Assembly (NCBI RefSeq): GCF_021172045.1
Contig: NZ_CP087164.1
Location: 3,534,001 to 3,598,000, forward strand
Length of the DNA stretch: 64,000 nt
Source of the DNA: Capillimicrobium parvum
GTDB lineage: Bacteria > Actinomycetota > Thermoleophilia > Solirubrobacterales > Solirubrobacteraceae
Direction of reading: 5' to 3'
Every line of letters begins with the position of its first letter. Position 1 is the stretch's first letter. Below, one piece after another: positions 16,302-57,842 of this stretch. Both the position numbers and the translations under genes were made by a program. The notes beneath the pieces are model-generated. The model made no database searches. It had not been told where the DNA came from and saw only the letters and a list, made by a program, of their open reading frames with translations.

Positions 16302-19300
16302 TCAGGGCGATGCTCGCAGACCGCGGCCTGAGAGCGCAACCCCCGCCGCGCGGGCGGCGCCGACGACGTTGCCCTTCGCCTCGTAGAGCGCCCGCGCCGA
16401 CTCGCACGCCCGCGCCGACTCCTCCCGGCGGCCTGCGGCCCCGAGGACGATCCCGAGATCCAGGTGGGCGTCGCCGCGATGGCTGAGGAAGTCGCTGGGC
16501 TCGGCCAGCGCGACCGCCTCGCGGGCCAGATCGACCGCCTCCCCGGCGTCGCCCCGTGCGGCCAGGCTTCGCGCCCGCACGCCCCGCCACACGACGTGCG
16601 TGATGAGGTCGTCGTCCGCGGTGAGCTCCGCGGCGAGCACGGCGAGCTCACCGGCCTCGTCGTCGCGGCCCTGCGCGAGCACGGCCTGGCCGAGGAACGC
16701 CGCGGTCGTGGAGAGCAGCGCGCGGTCGCCCATCTCCTCCAGCAGCCGGTAGCCGTCGCGCAGGTGGCGCTCGGCCGCGGCCGGCTCGCCGGCGAGCAGC
16801 TCGACGATCGCGGCGTGGTGCGAGACGGCCGAGCTGAGGCTCAGGCCGAGATCGGCCAGGACGGCGTCGCACTGGCGCAGGAGCGTCCGCGCGCGGTCGA
16901 AGCGGCCCTGCATCGCGTGCAGCGCGGCGAGCGGCTGCAGCGCCTCGGCGGTGATCGCGGGGTCGGCGGCCACCTGCTCGCGGATCTGCTCGCCGCGCCG
17001 GATCGCCTCCGGCGCCGGCGTCGGCCCGAAGAACAGCGACGACGCCACCCAGCCGAGGATGTCGATGCGCTCGTGCTCGGCCCCCGCGCGCCGGGCGTGC
17101 GTCGCCGCCTCGTCCCAGGCGCCAGCCGCCGCGGCGGCCTTCGCCTCGATCCAGTGCACCCACGCGCGCAGGCGCAGCGCGCGGCACAGGCCGTGCTCGT
17201 CGCCCGCGCCGCGGAAGACGGGCAGCGCCCCGTCGGCCACGGCGAGAGCGCGCGCGTTGCCGCCCGCCGCGCCGAGCTGCAGGTCCAGGAACTGCTGCTC
17301 GACCCGCGCGTGCGCCGCGGCGACCGCGTCGCCGGCCCGCGCGGCGCCGGCCGCGGCGCCGGCCAGAGCCGTGCCGGCGTCGGCCAGGCGGCCGGCCTCG
17401 AGGAGCGCCGCGCCGAGCTGTGCGAGCAGCCGGGCCCGGCGCGGATCGTCCGGGCCGCGCAGGGCGGCCGAGCGTTCGAGCAGGCCGATCGCGGCGCCGC
17501 GGTCGGCGCGGGCCAGGGCGCCGCGGGCCGCCGATCCGAGCCGGTCCGCGGCCTGCTCGGCCAGGCGTTCCGCGTCCGCACCGGCCGCACCCAGTTCCGT
17601 GAGCAGGCGACATGCCTGCTCGAGGTGGTAGCCGGCGATCTCGTCGAGCTCGGGCAGCGTCGACCCCGCCGCCTCCTGCACCCATCCCGCGAACTCCTCG
17701 TGCAGACGCGCCCGCGTCTCCTTCGGCAGCGAGCGATACGCCGCATCGCGGATGAGGGCGTGGCGGAACCGGTAGGCGTCCTCGTCCGGGAGGCTGGCCC
17801 GGTCGGGGCGGACGAGATCGCGGCGCACGAGCGAGGCGATCAGGCGGTCCGCGGCACCCGCGATCGGCGCCGGGGCCAGCGCTCGCGCGGCTCCCCCGTG
17901 GAACACCACGCCCTCGACCGAGGCGCGTACGAGGAGCGCGCGCTCGTCGTCGGGCAGCCGCTCGAGGCGCGCCGCGAGCAGCGCGTGGATCGTGGGCGGC
18001 ACGGGCAGCTGCGCCGGGAGCTCGACGTCCGTGCGCAGGAGGCCGCGGTCCGCGAGCTCGGCCAGCAGCTCCTCAGTGAACAGCGGGTTGCCCTCGGTGG
18101 CCTCGGCGATGCGCTCGGCGGCGCCCGGTTCGAGGTCCGTGCCCTGCAGCAGGTGCCCGACGAGCCGCGCGCTGTCCGCGGCGCCGAGCGGCTCGAGCAG
18201 GATCGTCGTGGAGTTGAGCTTGCCCCCGCCCCACCCCGGCCGGTCGTCCAGCAGCTCCGGCCGGGCCATGCAGAGCAGCACGATCGGCGCGGTGCGCGCC
18301 AGGTCCGCGACGTGCTCGACGAGATCGAGGAACGCCGCCTGCGCCCAGTGCAGGTCGTCGATGACCACGACGAGCGGGCGGGCGCTCGCGAGCACTTCGA
18401 GCAGCGTCCGCGCGGCCCACGCGATCTGCTCGCCCGTGGCGCCGCCGAGCCCGAGCGCCGCGGCCACGCCGCCGACGATCCGGTCCGCCCGCGGATCGTC
18501 GCCCACCGCCCGGGCGAGCACCGCCCGGGGGTCGTCCGGCGCGCCGCCGGCGAGGTCGCGGACGACCTCGGCCAGCGGCCAGTACGTGATCCCCTCGCCG
18601 TAGGACAGGCAGCGGCCGCGGAGGATCGCGACCTCGCCGCCGAGGCCGCTGACGACCTCGTGGACGAGGCGCGACTTGCCGACCCCGGCCGCGCCGAGGA
18701 CCGTGGCCAGGTGGCATGTGCGGTCCGCGGCGGCGGCGGCGAGGACGCCGGCGAGCGCGGCGAGCGGCTGCTCGCGGCCGACGAGCGGCGCGTCGAGCCG
18801 GGAGGTCCGCGCGCCGGCGCCCGGCGCGGGCGCGGGCGCGGCGAGCAGCCGGGCGGGCGCGACGGCCGCGCCCGTGCGGTCCGCCCGCTCTCCCGCCGGC
18901 TCGGTGCGTGCGGCGTCGCGCGCGAGGCGACGGGTTGCCTCGTCGAGCAGGATCTCGCCGGGCTCGGCGAGGGACTCGAGCTGCTGTGCGCACCCGACCG
19001 CCGGGCCGCTCGGATCGTGCGCCCCCCCGACGATCTCGCCGGTGCCGACCCCGGCGCGCAACACGGGACGCGCGCCGAACGCTGCGTCGAGCTCGGGGCC
19101 GAGCGCGGCGAGCTCGTCGCGGATGCCCGCGACCGCTCGCAGGGCGCGCAGCGCATCGTCCTCGTGCAGGAGGTCCAGACCGAACACGGCGAGCACCACG
19201 TCGCCCGGATAGGCCTGCACGGTGGCGCCGTGCCGGTCGAGGACCTCGACCATCCGGTCCAGGCAGCGACCCATCAGGCGGCGGCGGGCCTCGGGGTCGA

Positions 19301-20723
19301 GCGCGTCCGGGCGCGGGTCAGTGACGCTGGCGAACACGACGGTCACGGTCTTGCGGCGGTCGGGGCCGGGAGGCGGCCCGACGGTCCACCCGGCGGCGGA
19401 CGGGCGCAGGGCGAAGACCCGCTCGGGCCGGACGAGGCCGGGCAGCGCGTGCTCGCCGCGATCATCGAGCTCCACCCCGGCCGGCAGCCGGTCGCGTACG
19501 AGCTCCGCCGTCGCCTGCGACAGCACGACCTCGCCGCCGCCCGCGAGGCTGCGCAGCCGAGCGGCCCGGTTGAGCGTGGGACCGAAGTAGTCGCCGCCGC
19601 GCTCGTGCGCCTCGCCCGTGTGCACGGCGACGCGGACGCGCAGCGCGACGTCCTCGGTCCGGCCGGCGGCGTCGAGGGCCGCCTGCAGCCCGCTCGCGGC
19701 CTCGACGGCGTCCGAGGCCCGGCGGAAGACGGTGAGCGTCGAGTCGCCCTCCCCCTTGGCCTTCAGCAGGCGCCCACCCTCGGCCTCGACGACGCGGGCG
19801 ACGATCTCGTCGTGGCGCTCCAGGGCAGCCGCCATGCCGTCCGGGCTGGCCTCCCACAGGGCCGACGATCCCTCGATGTCGGTCAGCAGGAAGGTCACGA
19901 CGCCGCTCGGCAGGTCGCGGGCCTGCGGAGGCTCGGGCGGCGCGACCGCCTCCGCGGCCGGAGCCGTCGGCCGCCCCAGCGCCCGATCCTGCGCGAGGAT
20001 CGCCCGCTCCAGATCGCGCAGGCGCTCGCCGGGCTCGATGCCGAGCTCGTCGACGAGCCGGCGGCGCGCGTCCTGGTAGGCCTGCAGGGCGTCGGCCTGC
20101 CGATCGGCGCGGTAGAGCGCCAGCATGAGCTGCGCGCGCAGCCGCTCCCGGTACGGGTGCTCGGCGATGAGCGCCTCGAGCGGCGCGACGAGCTCGGCGT
20201 CCGCCCCGAGCTGCAGCCGTGCCTCCATGAGCTGTTCCAGCGCCGCGACGCGCTCGTCGTCGAGCCGGGCGATCTCGGGCCGGGCGAACGGCTCGTCGGC
20301 CAGGTCGGCGAGCGGCCGGCCGCGCCACAGGGCGAGCGCCTGCTCGAGCGTCCGCGCCGCGCCGGCCGCGTCGCCGCCCGCGAGCTGCGCGCGGCCCTGG
20401 GCGGCCAGGCGCTCGAAGCGGTGCGCGTCGATGCGGTCCGGGTCCGCGCGCAGCGCGTAGCCGCGCTCGCGCGTGACGAGCGTCGCCGCCGGACCGCCGC
20501 ACGCGAGCGCCCGGCGCAGGCGCGACACCTGCATCTGCAGCGTCTTCGCGGGCGCGGCCGGCGGCCGGTCGCCCCACAACTCGTCGATCAGCCGGTCCGT
20601 CGAGAGCGTCTCGTTGACGTGGATCAGCAGCAGGGCCAGCAGCGCCCGCTGCCGAGCACCCCCGAGCGGGACCTCCCCGCGCGCGTTGCAGGCCTCGAGA
20701 GGGCCGAGGATGCGGAAGTCCAT
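16302..20723 (-). CDS. Giant SARP/BTAD regulator with two cyclase-like domains, AAA-type ATPase and TPR region
   Basis: 1473 aa. Order: OmpR-type winged helix (~1-95) and BTAD (~100-245), as in AfsR/SARP activators. A class III nucleotidyl cyclase-like domain follows (TDIEGSS ~281, GEGDST ~325, NRAARL), then a second one (~455-620). Next come an NTPase with Walker A GAAGVGKS at ~677 and VVVIDDLHWAQ, and a long Ala-rich TPR-like C-terminus. In cyclase 2 the first metal-binding Asp position reads FASVT rather than FADVT, so that unit is probably inactive. ATG at 20723. It is likely a signal-integrating transcription factor. The target and signal are unknown; the divergent repeat protein is one candidate target. 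Confidence 0.88.
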   Translation of the reverse strand: MDFRILGPLEACNARGEVPLGGARQRALLALLLIHVNETLSTDRLIDELWGDRPPAAPAKTLQMQVSRLRRALACGGPAATLVTRERGYALRADPDRIDAHRFERLAAQGRAQLAGGDAAGAARTLEQALALWRGRPLADLADEPFARPEIARLDDERVAALEQLMEARLQLGADAELVAPLEALIAEHPYRERLRAQLMLALYRADRQADALQAYQDARRRLVDELGIEPGERLRDLERAILAQDRALGRPTAPAAEAVAPPEPPQARDLPSGVVTFLLTDIEGSSALWEASPDGMAAALERHDEIVARVVEAEGGRLLKAKGEGDSTLTVFRRASDAVEAASGLQAALDAAGRTEDVALRVRVAVHTGEAHERGGDYFGPTLNRAARLRSLAGGGEVVLSQATAELVRDRLPAGVELDDRGEHALPGLVRPERVFALRPSAAGWTVGPPPGPDRRKTVTVVFASVTDPRPDALDPEARRRLMGRCLDRMVEVLDRHGATVQAYPGDVVLAVFGLDLLHEDDALRALRAVAGIRDELAALGPELDAAFGARPVLRAGVGTGEIVGGAHDPSGPAVGCAQQLESLAEPGEILLDEATRRLARDAARTEPAGERADRTGAAVAPARLLAAPAPAPGAGARTSRLDAPLVGREQPLAALAGVLAAAAADRTCHLATVLGAAGVGKSRLVHEVVSGLGGEVAILRGRCLSYGEGITYWPLAEVVRDLAGGAPDDPRAVLARAVGDDPRADRIVGGVAAALGLGGATGEQIAWAARTLLEVLASARPLVVVIDDLHWAQAAFLDLVEHVADLARTAPIVLLCMARPELLDDRPGWGGGKLNSTTILLEPLGAADSARLVGHLLQGTDLEPGAAERIAEATEGNPLFTEELLAELADRGLLRTDVELPAQLPVPPTIHALLAARLERLPDDERALLVRASVEGVVFHGGAARALAPAPIAGAADRLIASLVRRDLVRPDRASLPDEDAYRFRHALIRDAAYRSLPKETRARLHEEFAGWVQEAAGSTLPELDEIAGYHLEQACRLLTELGAAGADAERLAEQAADRLGSAARGALARADRGAAIGLLERSAALRGPDDPRRARLLAQLGAALLEAGRLADAGTALAGAAAGAARAGDAVAAAHARVEQQFLDLQLGAAGGNARALAVADGALPVFRGAGDEHGLCRALRLRAWVHWIEAKAAAAAGAWDEAATHARRAGAEHERIDILGWVASSLFFGPTPAPEAIRRGEQIREQVAADPAITAEALQPLAALHAMQGRFDRARTLLRQCDAVLADLGLSLSSAVSHHAAIVELLAGEPAAAERHLRDGYRLLEEMGDRALLSTTAAFLGQAVLAQGRDDEAGELAVLAAELTADDDLITHVVWRGVRARSLAARGDAGEAVDLAREAVALAEPSDFLSHRGDAHLDLGIVLGAAGRREESARACESARALYEAKGNVVGAARAAGVALSGRGLRASP

Positions 20724-20873
20724 GGGCAGGCGGGGACGACGGACCGCTGAGCCGACGTTACCGGGCTGTGACCGCGCCGTGGGCGCGCGGAGACCGCCGG
20801 GCCGCAGGATCGGCGGCGATCTCAACCACCACCGGGCGGAGCATCCAGGCGCCGCCCCGGACAGGAGGCAGTC

Positions 20874-21287
20874 ATGGGTCAGTCCATTCCCCAGCAGCAT
20901 CCCGCGGTCGTGCTGCGCAGCCACTACGAGCTGGTCCGCGCGCTTCTGGCCCTTGCCGCGGTGACCGTCGTGTGCCTCGCGGTCGCCGTCGCGATCGTCG
21001 TGGCCGACGACAACGGCAGCCCCTCCACCAGCGCCGTCGGGCGCGCCCAGCCCGCCGGCGTGCAGGCGTCGCACCTCCCGGCGGCGACGGCGCTCCTGCG
21101 CAGCTCGCACGGGTTCACCCGGTTCGACGGCGGCCCCGAGGAGGGCACCCGCGGCGCCATCGCGACCGCATCGCCCACCACCCGCTTCGACGGCGGCCCC
21201 GAGGAGGGCACCCGCGGCGCCATCGCGACCGCATCGCCCTTCACCCGCTTCGACGGCGGCCCGGAGGAGGGGACCGCCGGACGCTGA
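20874..21287 (+). CDS. Small membrane protein with tandem FDGGPEEGT repeats
   Basis: 137 aa. AGGAGG lies 6 nt before the ATG. One transmembrane helix (~23-44, LLALAAVTVVCLAVAVAIVV) is followed by a Ser/Thr/Ala-rich stalk, and then by 2.6 copies of a 21-residue unit with core TRFDGGPEEGTRG. The tail probably faces outside. I do not know a function; similar DGGPEEG motifs occur in small proteins of this lineage as I recall, which is unverified. It is divergent from the SARP giant (150 bp gap) and is followed by a strong hairpin. The repeats are nearly identical at DNA level (63-bp period), indicating recent expansion. Confidence 0.75.
   Translation: MGQSIPQQHPAVVLRSHYELVRALLALAAVTVVCLAVAVAIVVADDNGSPSTSAVGRAQPAGVQASHLPAATALLRSSHGFTRFDGGPEEGTRGAIATASPTTRFDGGPEEGTRGAIATASPFTRFDGGPEEGTAGR
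21117..21281 (+). repeat. 63-bp in-frame tandem repeat
   Basis: The core TTCGACGGCGGCCC begins at 21123, 21186 and 21249, an exact 63-bp period coding for 21 residues. The first two units are almost identical; the third is shortened by the stop codon. Confidence 0.9.
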
Positions 21288-21308: not shown

Positions 21309-21338
21309 GAGGGGGCCGTCCGCGAGGACGGCCCCCTC
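21309..21338 (+). terminator. Strong terminator hairpin after the repeat-protein gene
   Basis: A 13-bp stem (core GGGGGCCGTCC / GGACGGCCCCC) with a GCGA loop starts 22 nt after the stop. There is no T-tract. Confidence 0.65.
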
Positions 21339-21477: not shown

Positions 21478-23013
21478 ATGTCCGCCAACGGTTCCACCTC
21501 GCCTCCTGCTGCCGACGCCAAGATCGACCGCGGGCTCATCCTCGTCGCCTCGGTCGTCGTGCTCGGCGCGATCATGTCGATCCTCGACACGACGGTCGTC
21601 AACGTCGCGATCAACACGCTCGCGCGGGACTTCGACGCGCCACTGTCGACGATCCAGTGGGTCGCCACGGGATACACGCTCGCGCTCGCGACGGTGATCC
21701 CGGTGAGCGGCTGGGCGGCGGACCGCTTCGGCACCAAGCGCCTGTATCTCATGTCGATCGCGCTGTTCCTGGCCGGCTCGATGCTGTCGGGCGCGGCCTG
21801 GAGCGCGGAGACGCTGATCCTCTTCCGCATCCTTCAGGGGCTCGGCGGCGGCATGCTCATGCCCGCGGGCATGACCATCCTCACGCGGGCGGCCGGCCCG
21901 AGCCGCGTGGGGCGCGTCATGGCGATCATCGGCGTGCCGATGCTGCTCGGTCCCGTCCTCGGACCGATTCTCGGCGGCTGGCTCGTCGACAGCTTCTCGT
22001 GGCGGTGGATCTTCTTCATCAACCTGCCGATCGGCATCGCCGCCATCGCCATGGCCTTCCGCGTCCTGCCCACCGACGTGCCTGCGCCGCAGCACCGGTT
22101 CGACTGGCTCGGCCTCGCGCTGCTGTCCCCCGGGCTCGCCGCGCTGATCTACGGGCTGGCGGAGAGCAACTCGGCCGGCGGCTTCGGCGCCACTCGCGTG
22201 CTCGTGCCGCTGATCGCGGGCGTCGTGATGCTCGCCCTCTTCGTCGTGCACGGCCTGCGCACGCCGCACGCGCTGATCGACCTGCGCCTGTTCAAGAACC
22301 GGATCTTCTCCGCGGCCTCGGCGACGCTGTTCCTCGTCATCATCGCCGCGTTCGGCGGCATGCTCCTGATGCCGCTGTACTTCCAGTCCGTCCGCGGAGA
22401 GTCGGCGATGACCACCGGCCTGCTCCTCGCGCCGCAGGGGCTGGGCGCGATGCTCGCGATGCCGCTCGCGGGCCAGCTGGCGGACCGAACGGGCATCGGC
22501 CGCATCGTCCCGGGCGGCCTGGTGCTCATCGGGGCGTCGTTCGTCGGGCTGACCCAGCTCGGCGCCGACACGAGCTACTGGCTCATCGGCGCGCTGCTGT
22601 TCGTCATGGGCCTCGGGATGGGCTTCACGATGATGCCGACGTTCACGGGCGCCCTGCAGACGCTGCGCCACGCCGCGATCGCCCGGGCCAGCACGACGCT
22701 GAACATCGACCAGCAGGTGGGCGCGTCGGTCGGCACCGCCGTGCTCAGCGTCATCCTCGCCCACGAGCTCGCGTCGCGCTTTCCGAACGCGGCCGGCGGC
22801 GGGATCGGCGCGGTGGTCCCCGACGCCGTGCGTGAGCGCGTTGCCCCGATGATGGCCGACGCCTACGGCGCGACGTTCTGGTACGCCGTGGGGCTCGTCG
22901 TCGTCGCGTTCCTCGTCGCCGTCACGCTGCTGCCCAAGCACAAGCCCGAGCCCGTCGACGAGCCCGGTGACGCGGTGAGCGCCGAGGCCTCCGAGCCCGT
23001 ACTGATGCACTGA
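21478..23013 (+). CDS. DHA2-family (14-TM) MFS drug/H+ antiporter
   Basis: 511 aa. The pattern is that of EmrB/QacA-type exporters: SILDTTVVNVAINTL in TM1 (motif D1), GWAADRFGTKRLYL (motif A), LFRILQGLGGGMLMPAGMTI (motif B) and GPVLGPILGGWLVDSFSWRW (motif C). Fourteen hydrophobic segments are expected. It exports hydrophobic drugs or metabolites across the inner membrane; the substrate is unknown. No HlyD/EmrA partner and no adjacent TetR/MarR gene is present. The ATG at 21478 is the first of the conserved frame. Confidence 0.93.
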   Translation: MSANGSTSPPAADAKIDRGLILVASVVVLGAIMSILDTTVVNVAINTLARDFDAPLSTIQWVATGYTLALATVIPVSGWAADRFGTKRLYLMSIALFLAGSMLSGAAWSAETLILFRILQGLGGGMLMPAGMTILTRAAGPSRVGRVMAIIGVPMLLGPVLGPILGGWLVDSFSWRWIFFINLPIGIAAIAMAFRVLPTDVPAPQHRFDWLGLALLSPGLAALIYGLAESNSAGGFGATRVLVPLIAGVVMLALFVVHGLRTPHALIDLRLFKNRIFSAASATLFLVIIAAFGGMLLMPLYFQSVRGESAMTTGLLLAPQGLGAMLAMPLAGQLADRTGIGRIVPGGLVLIGASFVGLTQLGADTSYWLIGALLFVMGLGMGFTMMPTFTGALQTLRHAAIARASTTLNIDQQVGASVGTAVLSVILAHELASRFPNAAGGGIGAVVPDAVRERVAPMMADAYGATFWYAVGLVVVAFLVAVTLLPKHKPEPVDEPGDAVSAEASEPVLMH

Positions 23014-35837: not shown

Positions 35838-36338
35838 ATGAACGTCGAGGCGATCGCCCCGATGCCGCACTCTCGCCTGGCCTGGAGGCTGACCGATCTC
35901 CGTGCGCGACGCCACCGCCGGCGCCTGGACCGCGCGCTCGCGGCCGGACAAGATCCCTGGACCAGTGGCGAGCTCGTGACGCGCGCCGCAGAGCTGACCG
36001 CCTTGCCGACACGGCGAAAGCTCGCCCACGCGATCGCCGACATGATCGTCATCGCCGACCACACCGGGCACGTTGCGTCCGCGGTCACATACAGCGACGT
36101 GTGCCGAGCGCCGATTCGCGAAGAGCGCGACAGGCTCGTCGACCTGGCGCACCTGCTCCATGGCACGGCCCCCGTCCCCGTCGCGTGCGTCGCGGCGGCC
36201 GCAGGCGTGCTCTGGCACGACGCCGATGCCTTGCGCGACCCGGCCCATGCCGCGGACGCCCTCGAACATGGACTGAACCGCTGCTTCGACGTGATCCGGC
36301 ACTCAGCGCCCACCGGACTTGACCGCTACGCGGAGTAG
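35838..36338 (+). CDS. Hypothetical actinobacterial-type protein
   Basis: 166 aa. GGAGG lies 5 nt before the ATG. I do not recognise it. The N-terminus WRLTDLRARRHRRRLDRALAAGQDPWTSGELVTRAAELT is basic and helical. Most of the rest (TRRKLAHAIADMIVIADH, LVDLAHLLHGTAPVPVACVA, LWHDADALRDPAHAADALEHGLNRCFDVI) looks like a compact helical bundle, with no signal or membrane segment. The 3' end, including the stop codon, is duplicated downstream (see repeat). No neighbour suggests a role. Confidence 0.65.
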   Translation: MNVEAIAPMPHSRLAWRLTDLRARRHRRRLDRALAAGQDPWTSGELVTRAAELTALPTRRKLAHAIADMIVIADHTGHVASAVTYSDVCRAPIREERDRLVDLAHLLHGTAPVPVACVAAAAGVLWHDADALRDPAHAADALEHGLNRCFDVIRHSAPTGLDRYAE

Positions 36339-36373
36339 TTGCGCCACCAGACTTGACCGCTACGCGGAGTAGT
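36317..36373 (+). repeat. 23-bp direct repeat over the 3' end of the hypothetical gene
   Basis: ACTTGACCGCTACGCGGAGTAGT occurs at 36317-36339 and again at 36351-36373, 34 bp apart start to start; the flanks CCACC(G)G/CCACCAG are also similar. The first copy contains the last codons and the TAG stop. It looks like a small tandem duplication. Confidence 0.85.
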
Positions 36374-36474
36374 AGCGGTGTCGATGTCCGCTTGGCGTGG
36401 ACAGCGTCGGCCCGGACCGCATTCACCGATCGGCGGGACCGCGAGGCCGCTGTCGGCTCAGGAAGCGTGCGGGC

Positions 36475-38218: not shown

Positions 38219-40081
38219 TCAATACACGTCGAGGAGATAGCGGCGATCGCGCTTGAGCGCCGCGAGGTACGCGTTGGCCCCGTCGCGGTCGAGACCGCCG
38301 TGCTCGGCGACGATGCCGACGAGCGCGGCGTGGACGTCGGGCGCCATCCGTTCCGCGTCGCCGCAGACGTAGAGCCTCGCGCCGTCCTCCAGCCACGCGT
38401 AGACGTCGCGGCCCTGCCGAACCAGACGATCCTGGACGTAGGTCTTGGGCTGCGCGTCGCGGGAGAACGCGAGATCCAGGCGGCTCAGCACCCCGCTGCG
38501 GTGCAGGTCCTGCCATTCGACCTGGTAGATGAAGTCGCTGCGGAAGTTGCGCTCGCCGAAGAACAGCCAGGACCGGCCCGTGACGCCGCGCGCCTCGCGC
38601 TCCTGCATGAACGCGCGGTAGGGCGCGACGCCGGTCCCCGCGCCGATCATCACGATCGGCGTGTCGTCGTCGGGCAGCCGGAAGTGGTCGTTGCTCTGGA
38701 CGTAGACCGGGACCGTGGCGTCTTCGTCGGTGCGCCGGGCCAGGCAGCCGGAGGCGACGCCGGTGCGCGGTAGGTCGTGCAGCAGGTAGCGCACCGTGCT
38801 GACCGTGAGATGCGCCTCCTCCGGTGCCGCGGCAAGGCTCGAGGCGATCGAGTACAGGCGCGGCTGCAACGGCCGCAGACCTGCGACGAACACGTCTGGG
38901 TCGATGCCCCCCACGCGAAAGCGGCTGACGAGATCGAGGATGTGGTGCCCGCGCAAGAAGGCTGCTCGTTCCTTGGTGCGATCGGCCGCGCACAACGCCT
39001 GCAGTTCCGCCGCCCCGGTGAGCTGCGCCCAATGCTCGAGGAAGCGCGGCGTCGCGGCGGTGATCTCGAACGTGCCCGCCAGCGCCTCGCCCAGGGTGGT
39101 CGTCTCCTGCTTGACCGCGACCGGTGCGTCGGCCGCCAGCTCGAGCCGCTGCAGGAGCGTCTCGACGAGCGCCGGGTCGTTGCGCGGGACGACGCCCAGT
39201 GCGTCGCCCGGCTCGTAGGTCAGCCCCGAGTCCTCGAGCGACAGCTCGACGTGGCGTGTCTCCTTCGTCGAGCCGCGGCCGGTCAACACGATGTTCTCGA
39301 GGACGGCCGCCTCGAACGGGTGCTTCTTGCTGAACGCCACCGGCGCGGGCGCTCCGCCGTTGCGCGCCGAAGGGGAACCGCCGTTGCGCGCCGAAGGGGA
39401 ACCGCCGTTGCGCGCCGGCGAGCCGTCCGCCCCCGGCGACTGCCCGAGGGTGCCGACGACCGCCGCGATCCACGCCGCGGCGGCGTCCTCGTAGTCGACG
39501 TCGCAGTCCACGCGGTCGGCCAGGCGCTGCGCACCGAGCTCGGCCAGCCGCTCGTCGATCCGCTTCCCCGCGGAGCAGTAGTGCTCGTACGTCGAATCGC
39601 CGAGCGCGAGGACCGCGAAGCGCACCTCCGGCAGCTTCGGCGCCTTGCGGCCCTCGAGGAACTCGAAGAAGTCCATGGCCGTCTGCGGCGGATCGCCCTC
39701 ACCGTGCGTGCTGGTGACGACGAGCAGGTCCTGCTCATCCCTGAGCGTGCGCAGCTTGTAGTCGGCCATGTCGACGAGCCGCGGCTCGAGCCCCTGGGCC
39801 GTGGCGGCTTCGGCCAACGACGTGGCCAGCTCCTTGCCGTTCCCGGTCTCGCTGCCGAACAGGATCGTGACCAGCCGCGAATCCAGCTCGGCCTCGCCCG
39901 GCAACCACGTCCCGGCATCGTCGTCGAACCCGATCGCCGCGCGGTGCGCCATTCCCGCGAAGAAGCCGCTGGCCCAGATCGCCTGTTCGCGATCGAGCGA
40001 GGTCGCGAGCCCGTTGATCTGCTCCAGTTGATCTGCGGTGAGTATCGAATCTGACAGCTGCGACGCCATGCGTATGCTCAT
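38219..40081 (-). CDS. cysJ: Sulfite reductase flavoprotein (diflavin) subunit
   Basis: 620 aa. An FMN flavodoxin domain spans ~65-210 (ILFGSETGNGKELA, TSTHGEGDPP, LALGDSTYEHYCSAG). A repetitive linker follows at ~215-245, then an FAD domain (RLYSIASS) and an NADPH domain (MIGAGTGVAPYRAF, terminal YLLDVY). It passes electrons NADPH-FAD-FMN to CysI. Start ATG at 40081 with GGAAG upstream; ATG 40069 is the alternative. The interdomain linker contains three copies of ARNGGSPS, unlike normal CysJ linkers. The gene is otherwise intact. Confidence 0.95.
   Translation of the reverse strand: MSIRMASQLSDSILTADQLEQINGLATSLDREQAIWASGFFAGMAHRAAIGFDDDAGTWLPGEAELDSRLVTILFGSETGNGKELATSLAEAATAQGLEPRLVDMADYKLRTLRDEQDLLVVTSTHGEGDPPQTAMDFFEFLEGRKAPKLPEVRFAVLALGDSTYEHYCSAGKRIDERLAELGAQRLADRVDCDVDYEDAAAAWIAAVVGTLGQSPGADGSPARNGGSPSARNGGSPSARNGGAPAPVAFSKKHPFEAAVLENIVLTGRGSTKETRHVELSLEDSGLTYEPGDALGVVPRNDPALVETLLQRLELAADAPVAVKQETTTLGEALAGTFEITAATPRFLEHWAQLTGAAELQALCAADRTKERAAFLRGHHILDLVSRFRVGGIDPDVFVAGLRPLQPRLYSIASSLAAAPEEAHLTVSTVRYLLHDLPRTGVASGCLARRTDEDATVPVYVQSNDHFRLPDDDTPIVMIGAGTGVAPYRAFMQEREARGVTGRSWLFFGERNFRSDFIYQVEWQDLHRSGVLSRLDLAFSRDAQPKTYVQDRLVRQGRDVYAWLEDGARLYVCGDAERMAPDVHAALVGIVAEHGGLDRDGANAYLAALKRDRRYLLDVY
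39354..39416 (-). repeat. 24-bp in-frame minisatellite in the cysJ linker
   Basis: The block CCGCCGTTGCGCGCC recurs at 39354, 39378 and 39402, a strict 24-bp period encoding (ARNGGSPS)n between the FMN and FAD domains. It can expand or contract without frameshift. Confidence 0.9.
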
Positions 40082-56592: not shown

Positions 56593-57792
56593 GTGGCGCG
56601 GCTGTTCCTCGGCGCGTTCGGCGACCCCGGGCACGCATTCCCGATGATCGCGCTCGGCCGCGAGCTCGCGGCGCGCGGCCACGACGTGACGCTGCAGACG
56701 TGGGTGAAGTGGCAGGCGCACGTCGAGCGCGAGGGCATGCGCTTCGCACCCGCGCCGGAGTACCACGTGTTCCCGACGCTCGAGCGGCCTCTGAAGCCCT
56801 ACGAAGCGGTGGTGCGCGCGACGCACGACTCGATGCCGCAACTGGAGGCCGCGCGCCCCGATGCCGTGGTGGCCGACATCCTCACGCTCGCGCCGGCGCT
56901 CGCGGGCGAGCGGCTCGGGCTGGCGGTCGCGACGCTCATCCCCCACGTCGACCCGCGCGGCGCCGACGGCTTCCCGCCGTACTCGATGGGAGCGCGTCTG
57001 CCGCGGACGGCGGCGGGGCGCGCGCTGTGGCGCGAGCTCGATCGCGTGGTGCGGCGGGGCGTCGAGCTCGGCCGCCGGGAGCTCAACGAGACGCGCCGCC
57101 GGCTCGGGCTGCCCGCGCTCGACCGGGTGCACGGCGGGATCAGCGACCGGCTGGCGCTCGTCGCGACGTTCCCGCAGCTCGAGTATCCGCGGGCATGGCC
57201 GGCGAGCACGCACGTCGTCGGCCCGCTGCAGTGGGAGCAGCCGTTCGGCGACGTCGAGCTGCCCCCGGGCGACGGCCCGCTCGTGCTCGTCGCGCCGTCC
57301 ACGGTGCAGGACCCGTCGCATCGGCTGCTGCGGGCGACGGTCGAGGGACTCGCGGACGAGCCCGTGCGGGTGCTGGCGACGACGAACCGGCGGCCGCTCG
57401 AGCAGCCGCTGGAGCTCCCGGACAACGCGCGGCTCGTGGAATGGGTGAGCTACGCGCGGACGATGCCCGCGTGCGACGTGGTCGTCTGCCACGGCGGGCA
57501 CGGCACGGTCGTGCGCGCGCTGAGCAGCGGGTGCGCGGTCGTGTGCTGCCCGGCGGGCGGCGACATGAACGAGAACGCCGCCCGGGTGGACTGGGCCGGC
57601 GCGGGCGTCCGGCTGCCGCGGCGGTTCGCGGCGGCGCAGCCTGTCCGACTGGCCGTTCGGCGGGCAATGCGCGAGCCGACGCTGCGGGCCCGCGCGCGGC
57701 AACTGCAGACGTGGGCGGCCGAGCACGACGGCGCGGCGCGGGCGGCGAGCCTCGTGGAGGCATTCGCACCCGCGCCGCGCGCGACGTCGTGA
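56593..57792 (+). CDS. GT1-type glycosyltransferase (MGT/UGT-like)
   Basis: 399 aa from the GTG at 56593. GT-B fold: FGDPGHAFPMIALGRELAARGHDVTLQTW at the N-terminus, and the donor-binding region near the C-terminus (LVEWVSYARTMPACDVVVCH, then GGHGTVVRALSSGCAVVCCP and AGGDMNENAARV). The HGGHGT and GGDMNENA elements match macrolide or sterol UDP-glycosyltransferases. It transfers a sugar to a small hydrophobic acceptor; the identity is unknown. It follows an LLM oxidoreductase by 8 bp. Its stop codon sits inside an octamer repeat. Confidence 0.88.
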   Translation: MARLFLGAFGDPGHAFPMIALGRELAARGHDVTLQTWVKWQAHVEREGMRFAPAPEYHVFPTLERPLKPYEAVVRATHDSMPQLEAARPDAVVADILTLAPALAGERLGLAVATLIPHVDPRGADGFPPYSMGARLPRTAAGRALWRELDRVVRRGVELGRRELNETRRRLGLPALDRVHGGISDRLALVATFPQLEYPRAWPASTHVVGPLQWEQPFGDVELPPGDGPLVLVAPSTVQDPSHRLLRATVEGLADEPVRVLATTNRRPLEQPLELPDNARLVEWVSYARTMPACDVVVCHGGHGTVVRALSSGCAVVCCPAGGDMNENAARVDWAGAGVRLPRRFAAAQPVRLAVRRAMREPTLRARARQLQTWAAEHDGAARAASLVEAFAPAPRATS

Positions 57793-57836
57793 CGCCGTGA
57801 CGCCGTGACGCCGTGACGCCGTGACGCCGTGACGCC
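57789..57836 (+). repeat. Six tandem copies of GTGACGCC across a stop codon
   Basis: The octamer GTGACGCC occurs six times without interruption from 57789 to 57836. The first copy contains the TGA of the glycosyltransferase (57790-57792). Copy number is expected to vary by slippage and would not alter the protein. Confidence 0.95.
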
Positions 57837-57842
57837 GGCGGT

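Follow-up and report, generated by a model that had tools for sequence, protein, structure and literature searches.

A large SARP regulator and a divergent small membrane protein with tandem repeats flank a SARP-type promoter in Capillimicrobium parvum

Among described systems, the closest to the locus presented here is the AfsR-AfsS pair, in which AfsS is a direct target of AfsR (PMC6988585). AfsS of Streptomyces coelicolor is a protein of 63 aa with three 12-aa repeats that are thought to be crucial for its activity (PMC2267785). It has been called sigma-like, and the available parts of three papers mention no membrane helix (PMC10936776, PMC6988585, PMC2267785); as an output of AfsR it is known but mechanistically obscure. 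At SARP targets, direct repeats are spaced by 11 or 22 bp, and 8 bp separate the 3' one from the -10 element, which in afsS reads CACTGT (PMC10936776).

Here we analysed a window of 64,000 nucleotides from Capillimicrobium parvum. A sequence-only reading of this window had described a small single-pass protein with a near-identical 63-bp repeat, encoded divergently from a giant SARP, and the ORF, the repeats and the helix reported below bear out all of these points.

The small gene and its repeats

The small gene (20874-21287, plus strand) encodes 137 aa from an ATG start, with an AGGAGG ending 5 nt upstream. Its features are the following.

20863-20868, plus strand: ribosome binding site AGGAGG, present in the paralogue too
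20874-21287, plus strand: small membrane protein with C-terminal tandem repeats (ORF, ribosome binding site, 53% identical paralogue, pS above pN, GC3 0.94)
20874-20939, plus strand: conserved N-terminus QHPAVVLRSHY..R, common to the paralogue and in part to a relative in genome G052; predicted to face the cytosol
20940-21005, plus strand: transmembrane helix or long signal anchor (hydropathy and AlphaFold helix 10-47)
21117-21179, plus strand: repeat unit 1, TRFDGGPEEGTRGAIATASPT
21180-21242, plus strand: repeat unit 2, a close duplicate of unit 1
21243-21284, plus strand: repeat unit 3, shortened, TRFDGGPEEGTAGR; the paralogue has the same terminal form
21309-21338, plus strand: GC-rich hairpin 3' of the stop codon, without a T run (fold and terminator scan)

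The genome of C. parvum (G000), a single contig of 5.95 Mb, holds a paralogue of the small gene at C1:402267-402644 that is 53% identical. Over 46 N-terminal codons the two genes differ with a pS of 0.43 and a pN of 0.29, and third-position GC is 0.94 in both. We conclude that the small ORF is a real coding gene, because the paralogue and a more distant relative, the ribosome binding site, the third-position GC, the excess of synonymous change and the promoter all argue for it.

Residues 1-22 of the protein are positively charged, residues 23-44 or so are hydrophobic, 45-80 form a linker and 82-137 hold the three cores; hydropathy gives a single hydrophobic stretch. A single-sequence AlphaFold model places a helix at residues 10-47, with 10-residue block means of 90-97 for residues 11-40, and the tail is disordered, mostly with pLDDT below 50. 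By the positive-inside rule, the charges make it plausible that the repeats lie outside the membrane. A sortase anchor (C-terminal LPXTG, helix and basic tail) is absent by sequence. Pfam, PHROGs and plasmid searches with the small protein gave no match, NCBIfam gave three rows, all far under the cut-off, and the PDB one row at E 0.67. Downstream of the stop codon, the hairpin has a 13-bp GC stem, and a 70-nt fold reaches -50 kcal/mol (z -2.35). The strong terminator claimed earlier is this GC hairpin, which has no T run, and the terminator scan, which requires one, listed none at this locus; a sigma-70 scan of the locus likewise listed nothing. An MFS transporter gene (21478-23013) lies on the same strand directly past the hairpin.

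Tandem Repeats Finder reports the array at 21116-21275 with a period of 63, 2.5 copies, 94% matches and a score of 285, the highest among its 14 rows for the window. Elsewhere the window holds an 8-bp unit, GACGCCGT, in 6.9 copies (97%) at 57783-57837, which would shift the frame if it lay inside a gene, a perfect 24-bp repeat in 2.7 copies at 39354-39417 and a 34-bp repeat in 2.1 copies at 36305-36377. The three TRFDGGPEEGT cores of the small gene start at 21117, 21180 and 21243. Copies 1 and 2, compared over 14 codons, are one synonymous base apart; the last of the three is shortened and ends in TAGR. The core, TRxDGGPEEGT in general form, occurs three times in the window gene and twice in the paralogue, with DGGPEEGT identical in all five copies; between copies, pN is 0-0.12 against a pS of 0.12-0.57 (11 codons compared). 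Both paralogues have a last copy ending in TAG(R/H) and a first copy that reads TRGA, and because these terminal and initial forms match, the common ancestor probably had two copies, with a 63-bp duplication following later in the window gene. The near-identity of copies 1 and 2 and the invariant core thus support the recent expansion of a conserved core that had been read from the window.

Promoter geometry here and at other SARP genes

The neighbouring regulator and the intergenic region comprise the following features.

16302-20723, minus strand: large SARP regulator of 1473 aa (Trans_reg_C, BTAD, nucleotide cyclase, AAA, weak TPR)
20757-20763, plus strand: SARP-type box GTTACCG
20768-20774, plus strand: SARP-type box GTGACCG, spaced 11 bp from GTTACCG
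20790-20796, plus strand: SARP-type box GAGACCG, spaced 22 bp from GTGACCG
20805-20810, plus strand: -10-like CAGGAT, 8 bp downstream of GAGACCG (rule in PMC10936776)

A family search of the regulator placed Trans_reg_C, BTAD and AAA_16 above the cut-off and TPR_12 just below it (28.7 of 30.1 bits), and the protein carries an additional nucleotide cyclase domain. It is divergent from the small gene, and its start, MDFRILGPLE, matches that of its own paralogue, a large SARP of 1148 aa from which the second small gene is also divergent. Over their first 245 residues the paired SARPs are 67% identical to each other and 47-48% identical to the third-closest SARP; beyond the SARP half the pair has only one shared stretch, at 30% identity. 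With a conserved SARP half and differing C-terminal sensor parts, it appears that the DNA-binding half, the promoter and the small gene stay together. There are 7 BTAD places in the genome; beyond the two pairs the third-closest SARP was inspected and showed no such small gene alongside, which counts against the proposed module.

The two intergenic regions align. All three boxes of the window share one 11-bp register, and the paralogue promoter reads GTTACCG, 22 bp, GTTACCG, 8 bp, CACGAT. The published rule thus holds here both for repeat spacing (11 or 22 bp) and for the 8 bp between the 3' repeat and the -10. The pattern GTKACCGN4GTKACCG has one match in the window where 0.01 would be expected. 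Genome-wide, CTGTTACCG occurs at two places, both in the paralogue promoter and 22 bp apart, while the backward control gave 7. The full arrangement of boxes and -10 is found in the window plus L100 only at the two small genes, and in none of 60 simulations; another 400 kb of genomic sequence yielded no more, so that only the two genes have it in 479 kb in total. Control of the small gene by the neighbouring regulator, raised earlier as a possibility, is therefore backed by a SARP-type geometry more strongly than the window alone allowed. We regard such control as well supported by the sequence, with binding and activation by the SARP at the candidate boxes as its presumed means.

We then surveyed SARP upstream regions within the family. 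Among 131 family genomes, 43 had a SARP-domain match, giving 116 rows, of which four (G112:C159, G097:C71, G119:C32 and G159:C141) were left out; the resulting 112 regions comprise 30 loci, 80 further stretches, L100 and L134. A strict site was defined as NNNACCG-(11 or 22)-NNNACCG-8-NANNNT, read in the divergent direction over a range of 230 bp. It occurs in that direction in 14 of the 112 regions, both C. parvum pairs included, and on the opposite strand in none of them; as the pattern was derived from the window and the paralogue, the count is 12 of 110 once these two are set aside. Sixty control stretches of 20 kb (G164, G032, G000) gave 2 matches in 2.4 million strand-bases (0.02 expected), and 200 shuffles of the 112 regions gave a mean of 0.06 and a maximum of 2. 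When the spacing was scanned from 7 to 26, we found 10 sites at 11, 5 at 22 and 2 at all other values, and when the -10 offset was scanned from 3 to 14, there were 14 at 8 and 1 elsewhere (3-7 and 9-14). The 14 sites are not independent, L140-L144 being one lineage with L140 and L141 alike; despite this the geometry is sharp. That 98 of the 112 regions have no strict site counts against the proposed module.

A divergent small envelope protein is present in at least 10 of the 112 regions, found by repeat, motif or site rather than by full census. The strict site is present in six of the ten, namely L139 (the window itself), L100, L170, L172, L173 and L212, and missing from the other four (L147, L152, L154 and L161). 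The small proteins of L152, L154 and L161, which are divergent from SARPs, open with a signal-like segment, carry RSPDA-type copies (two or three in each) and have a helix at the C-terminus; those of L161, L147, L173 and L212 have FDWG(D/S)A ahead of a C-terminal helix. On contig G111:C172, some 6 kb separate two SARPs (L170 and L172), and divergent from each is a small protein anchored by a hydrophobic segment near its N-terminus, with a GTGAPP stretch and a tail ending in HSYGAVP. Searching the 112 regions (213 kb) for RSPD and FDWG picks out exactly the small proteins of these two types, six in all; a seventh region listed by motif, L193, holds an isolated RSPD word distant from the SARP and was dropped. 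Neither pattern occurs in 1.28 Mb of comparison sequence from three genomes (4-8% of each, window and L100 included). Five related genomes (G034, G161, G165, G162 and G014; L140-L144) have a SARP half 66-71% identical to that of the window and promoters reading GTTACCG, 11 bp, GAAACCG, 8 bp, xANNNT, and their divergent frame reads by eye as a methyltransferase. The same box thus does not imply a small-protein output, and outputs vary. At three more of the 14 strict sites (L149, L177 and L216) the facing frames are other or doubtful.

Taken together, the coding status, the repeats, the paralogous module and the promoter geometry are established at the level of sequence, and for a case of this kind the link to the regulator is strong.

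Distribution of the motif and readings of the locus

A spread of the motif across the class is not supported: exact DGGPEEGT is found in 1 of 399 class genomes, in the two genes of C. parvum itself. A GGPEEG codon pattern matches the genome five times (5 forward, 0 reverse), always within the two paralogues, with 0 matches for the reversed control. Across genome contigs the exact DGGPEEGT pattern occurs in 39 stretches, with a single match in each, in a collection from which near relatives of C. parvum may be left out; read in frame, none of these 39 is a small membrane protein with repeats. Eight of them, from several actinomycetes (L031, L034, L036, L038, L050, L052, L056 and L058), have roughly the common context TSECV.HPRV.GAVDG..DGGPEEGT.QGG, unrelated to the present one and in a short putative frame, and since this context is common to all they represent one conserved stretch rather than eight chance hits.

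Profile searches scored some candidates per genome and covered about half of the species, so that absence from them is weak evidence. A two-row profile gave rows at E<=0.01 in 11 of 146 family genomes, strong in C. parvum only. A three-row N-terminal profile gave rows at E<=0.001 in 22 of 232 order genomes, those spanning the profile coming only from G000 (two) and G052 (E 1.5e-29); at E<=1e-5 it gave 5 of 399 genomes in the class (three rows partial) and 1 of 396 in the phylum. Among the weak rows from other genomes that were read (all but L088-L090, L092, L094, L095, L097 and L099), only L006 has both the N-terminus and repeats, and most match the hydrophobic segment alone. L006 is the G052 relative, from another family, which keeps PAVV.R..Y and the helix and ends in two copies of LDTSQ(T/S)TAAQ(I/L)GARLNHRG. 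It has no box pair within 500 bp upstream and no SARP in ten Pfam-scanned frames of the surrounding 20 kb, both of which count against the module. A TTGACC-N17-TAGTGT promoter is seen by eye ahead of the G052 gene, and the scan at its threshold listed none. A pattern search for the L006 repeat gave matches in 92 of 232 genomes, mostly single (control, 10 matches); as neighbouring copies occur only in G052, no spread of this tandem repeat is seen. Confinement of the DGGPEEGT motif to one gene, named in the sequence-only reading as an outcome that would refute it, nearly holds, with two genes of a single genome, but the paralogue, the G052 relative and the analogous small proteins make up a wider theme. 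No paper was found that names GGPEEGT/DGGPEEG, DLRSPD, RSPDAID, GFDWGDAG or HSYGAVP, and searches on SARPs with a small membrane protein and on Thermoleophilia SARP/AfsR gave nothing alike by title and start of abstract among the matches listed.

With a SARP-type site next to a large activator, the pair looks like a switch and its output. We therefore propose, with about an even chance of being right, a two-gene module in which the SARP switches on the divergent small gene in an AfsR-AfsS-like manner, with a membrane-anchored output that carries multivalent repeats. The large SARP (16302-20723, minus strand) would bind the direct repeats at 20757-20796 and, together with RNA polymerase at the CAGGAT -10, activate the divergent small gene. 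The small protein would insert N-inside and expose a disordered tail with three TRxDGGPEEGT copies (two in the paralogue), and would serve as a dedicated output of the SARP at the membrane, as AfsS does for AfsR. That the repeat copies act as a multivalent ligand of an envelope partner is a guess.

Among the alternatives the one that survives best, unlikely as we hold it, is a multi-copy precursor: the hydrophobic segment would export the protein, and a protease would cut at the TR flanks and free FDGGPEEGTR peptides that signal to other cells or to the SARP. The G052 relative, with a conserved leader and a different tandem cargo, fits this, as do the unrelated short motifs in small envelope proteins next to other SARPs. 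TR precedes all five cores and also follows the 3 internal ones, whereas the terminal copies lack a second TR, and VVA/ILA ahead of the tail would, by eye, suit signal peptidase I. Against it stand the length of the hydrophobic segment and the need of a cytosolic SARP for import of the peptide; short of a systematic search, no protease for processing, exporter or receptor came to light either.

An improbable reading makes the small protein a feedback element, whose cytosolic N-terminus would bind the SARP and hold it at the membrane while the outer repeats sense the envelope. In its favour, QHPAVVLRSHY ranks with the best conserved stretches, and both pairs share a conserved SARP half; against it, much of the N-terminus persists in the G052 relative, which has no SARP in the frames scanned around it, and the small proteins at other SARPs have different N-termini. 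We consider it very unlikely that the protein is a fast-evolving, nearly dispensable surface tail whose repeats are an ordinary low-complexity expansion under a SARP promoter. The narrow distribution in searchable genomes, the disorder of the tail and the near-identical copies 1 and 2 would agree with it; against it, the five copies in the two paralogues all have the same core, although their flanks and synonymous sites differ, and the module was retained twice with its promoter. Lastly, that the frame is not a gene and merely lies open opposite the regulator in high-GC DNA, where antisense frames are open across the region and the mechanical ORF of the SARP extends antisense through the small gene, has practically no chance left, since the paralogue and distant relative, ribosome binding site, GC3 of 0.94, pS above pN and promoter refute it as far as sequence can.

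The recurrence of such pairs leads us to a speculation of low probability, namely that many large SARPs of the family own a divergent small envelope protein with a lineage-specific, often tandem peptide (TRxDGGPEEGT, RSPDA, HSYGAVP). These peptides would be exported signals and the cyclase, AAA and TPR halves private sensors, peptide and sensor being exchangeable around a shared SARP promoter. If true, this would be a new class of peptide-signalling circuit.

Comparison with described systems

Returning to the proposed two-gene module, large SARPs outside Streptomyces repeatedly face a divergent small protein across a SARP-type promoter, which suggests that a small partner is a recurring part of large-SARP circuits; the promoter rule predicts the partner of a SARP and makes the roles of large SARPs in such lineages testable. 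The likeness to AfsR-AfsS, as far as the available parts of the sources describe that pair, has three sides. The window SARP is large and has OmpR-type HTH, BTAD, NOD/ATPase and TPR parts like AfsR, the TPR lying just below the cut-off. The boxes are 11 bp apart and 8 bp from a poor -10, CACTGT there and CAGGAT or CACGAT here. The target, putative in our case, is small and holds short units in tandem, a likeness by description.

The differences are also clear from those descriptions. Our protein has 137 aa, a membrane helix and a 21-aa unit repeated in a tail thought to lie outside, whereas AfsS has 63 aa and a 12-aa unit; here the small gene is divergent and the regulator has an extra cyclase domain. 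AfsS itself is soluble. Because of the membrane helix, and because the likeness is by description only, we do not file the small protein as an AfsS.

Multi-copy peptide precursors such as yeast alpha-factor consist of a leader and tandem copies with repeated basic flanks. The small protein may parallel this layout, with TR before all five copies and on both sides of three; it differs in its bacterial single-pass anchor, and no processing enzyme or receptor came to light. PimR-type SARPs, with a guanylate cyclase and a LAL-like half, resemble the window regulator in that a cyclase-like, ATP-binding part is joined to the SARP half, but PimR works in polyene synthesis by way of the PAS-LuxR activator PimM, and the available part of that account mentions no small repeat protein (PMC3367932).
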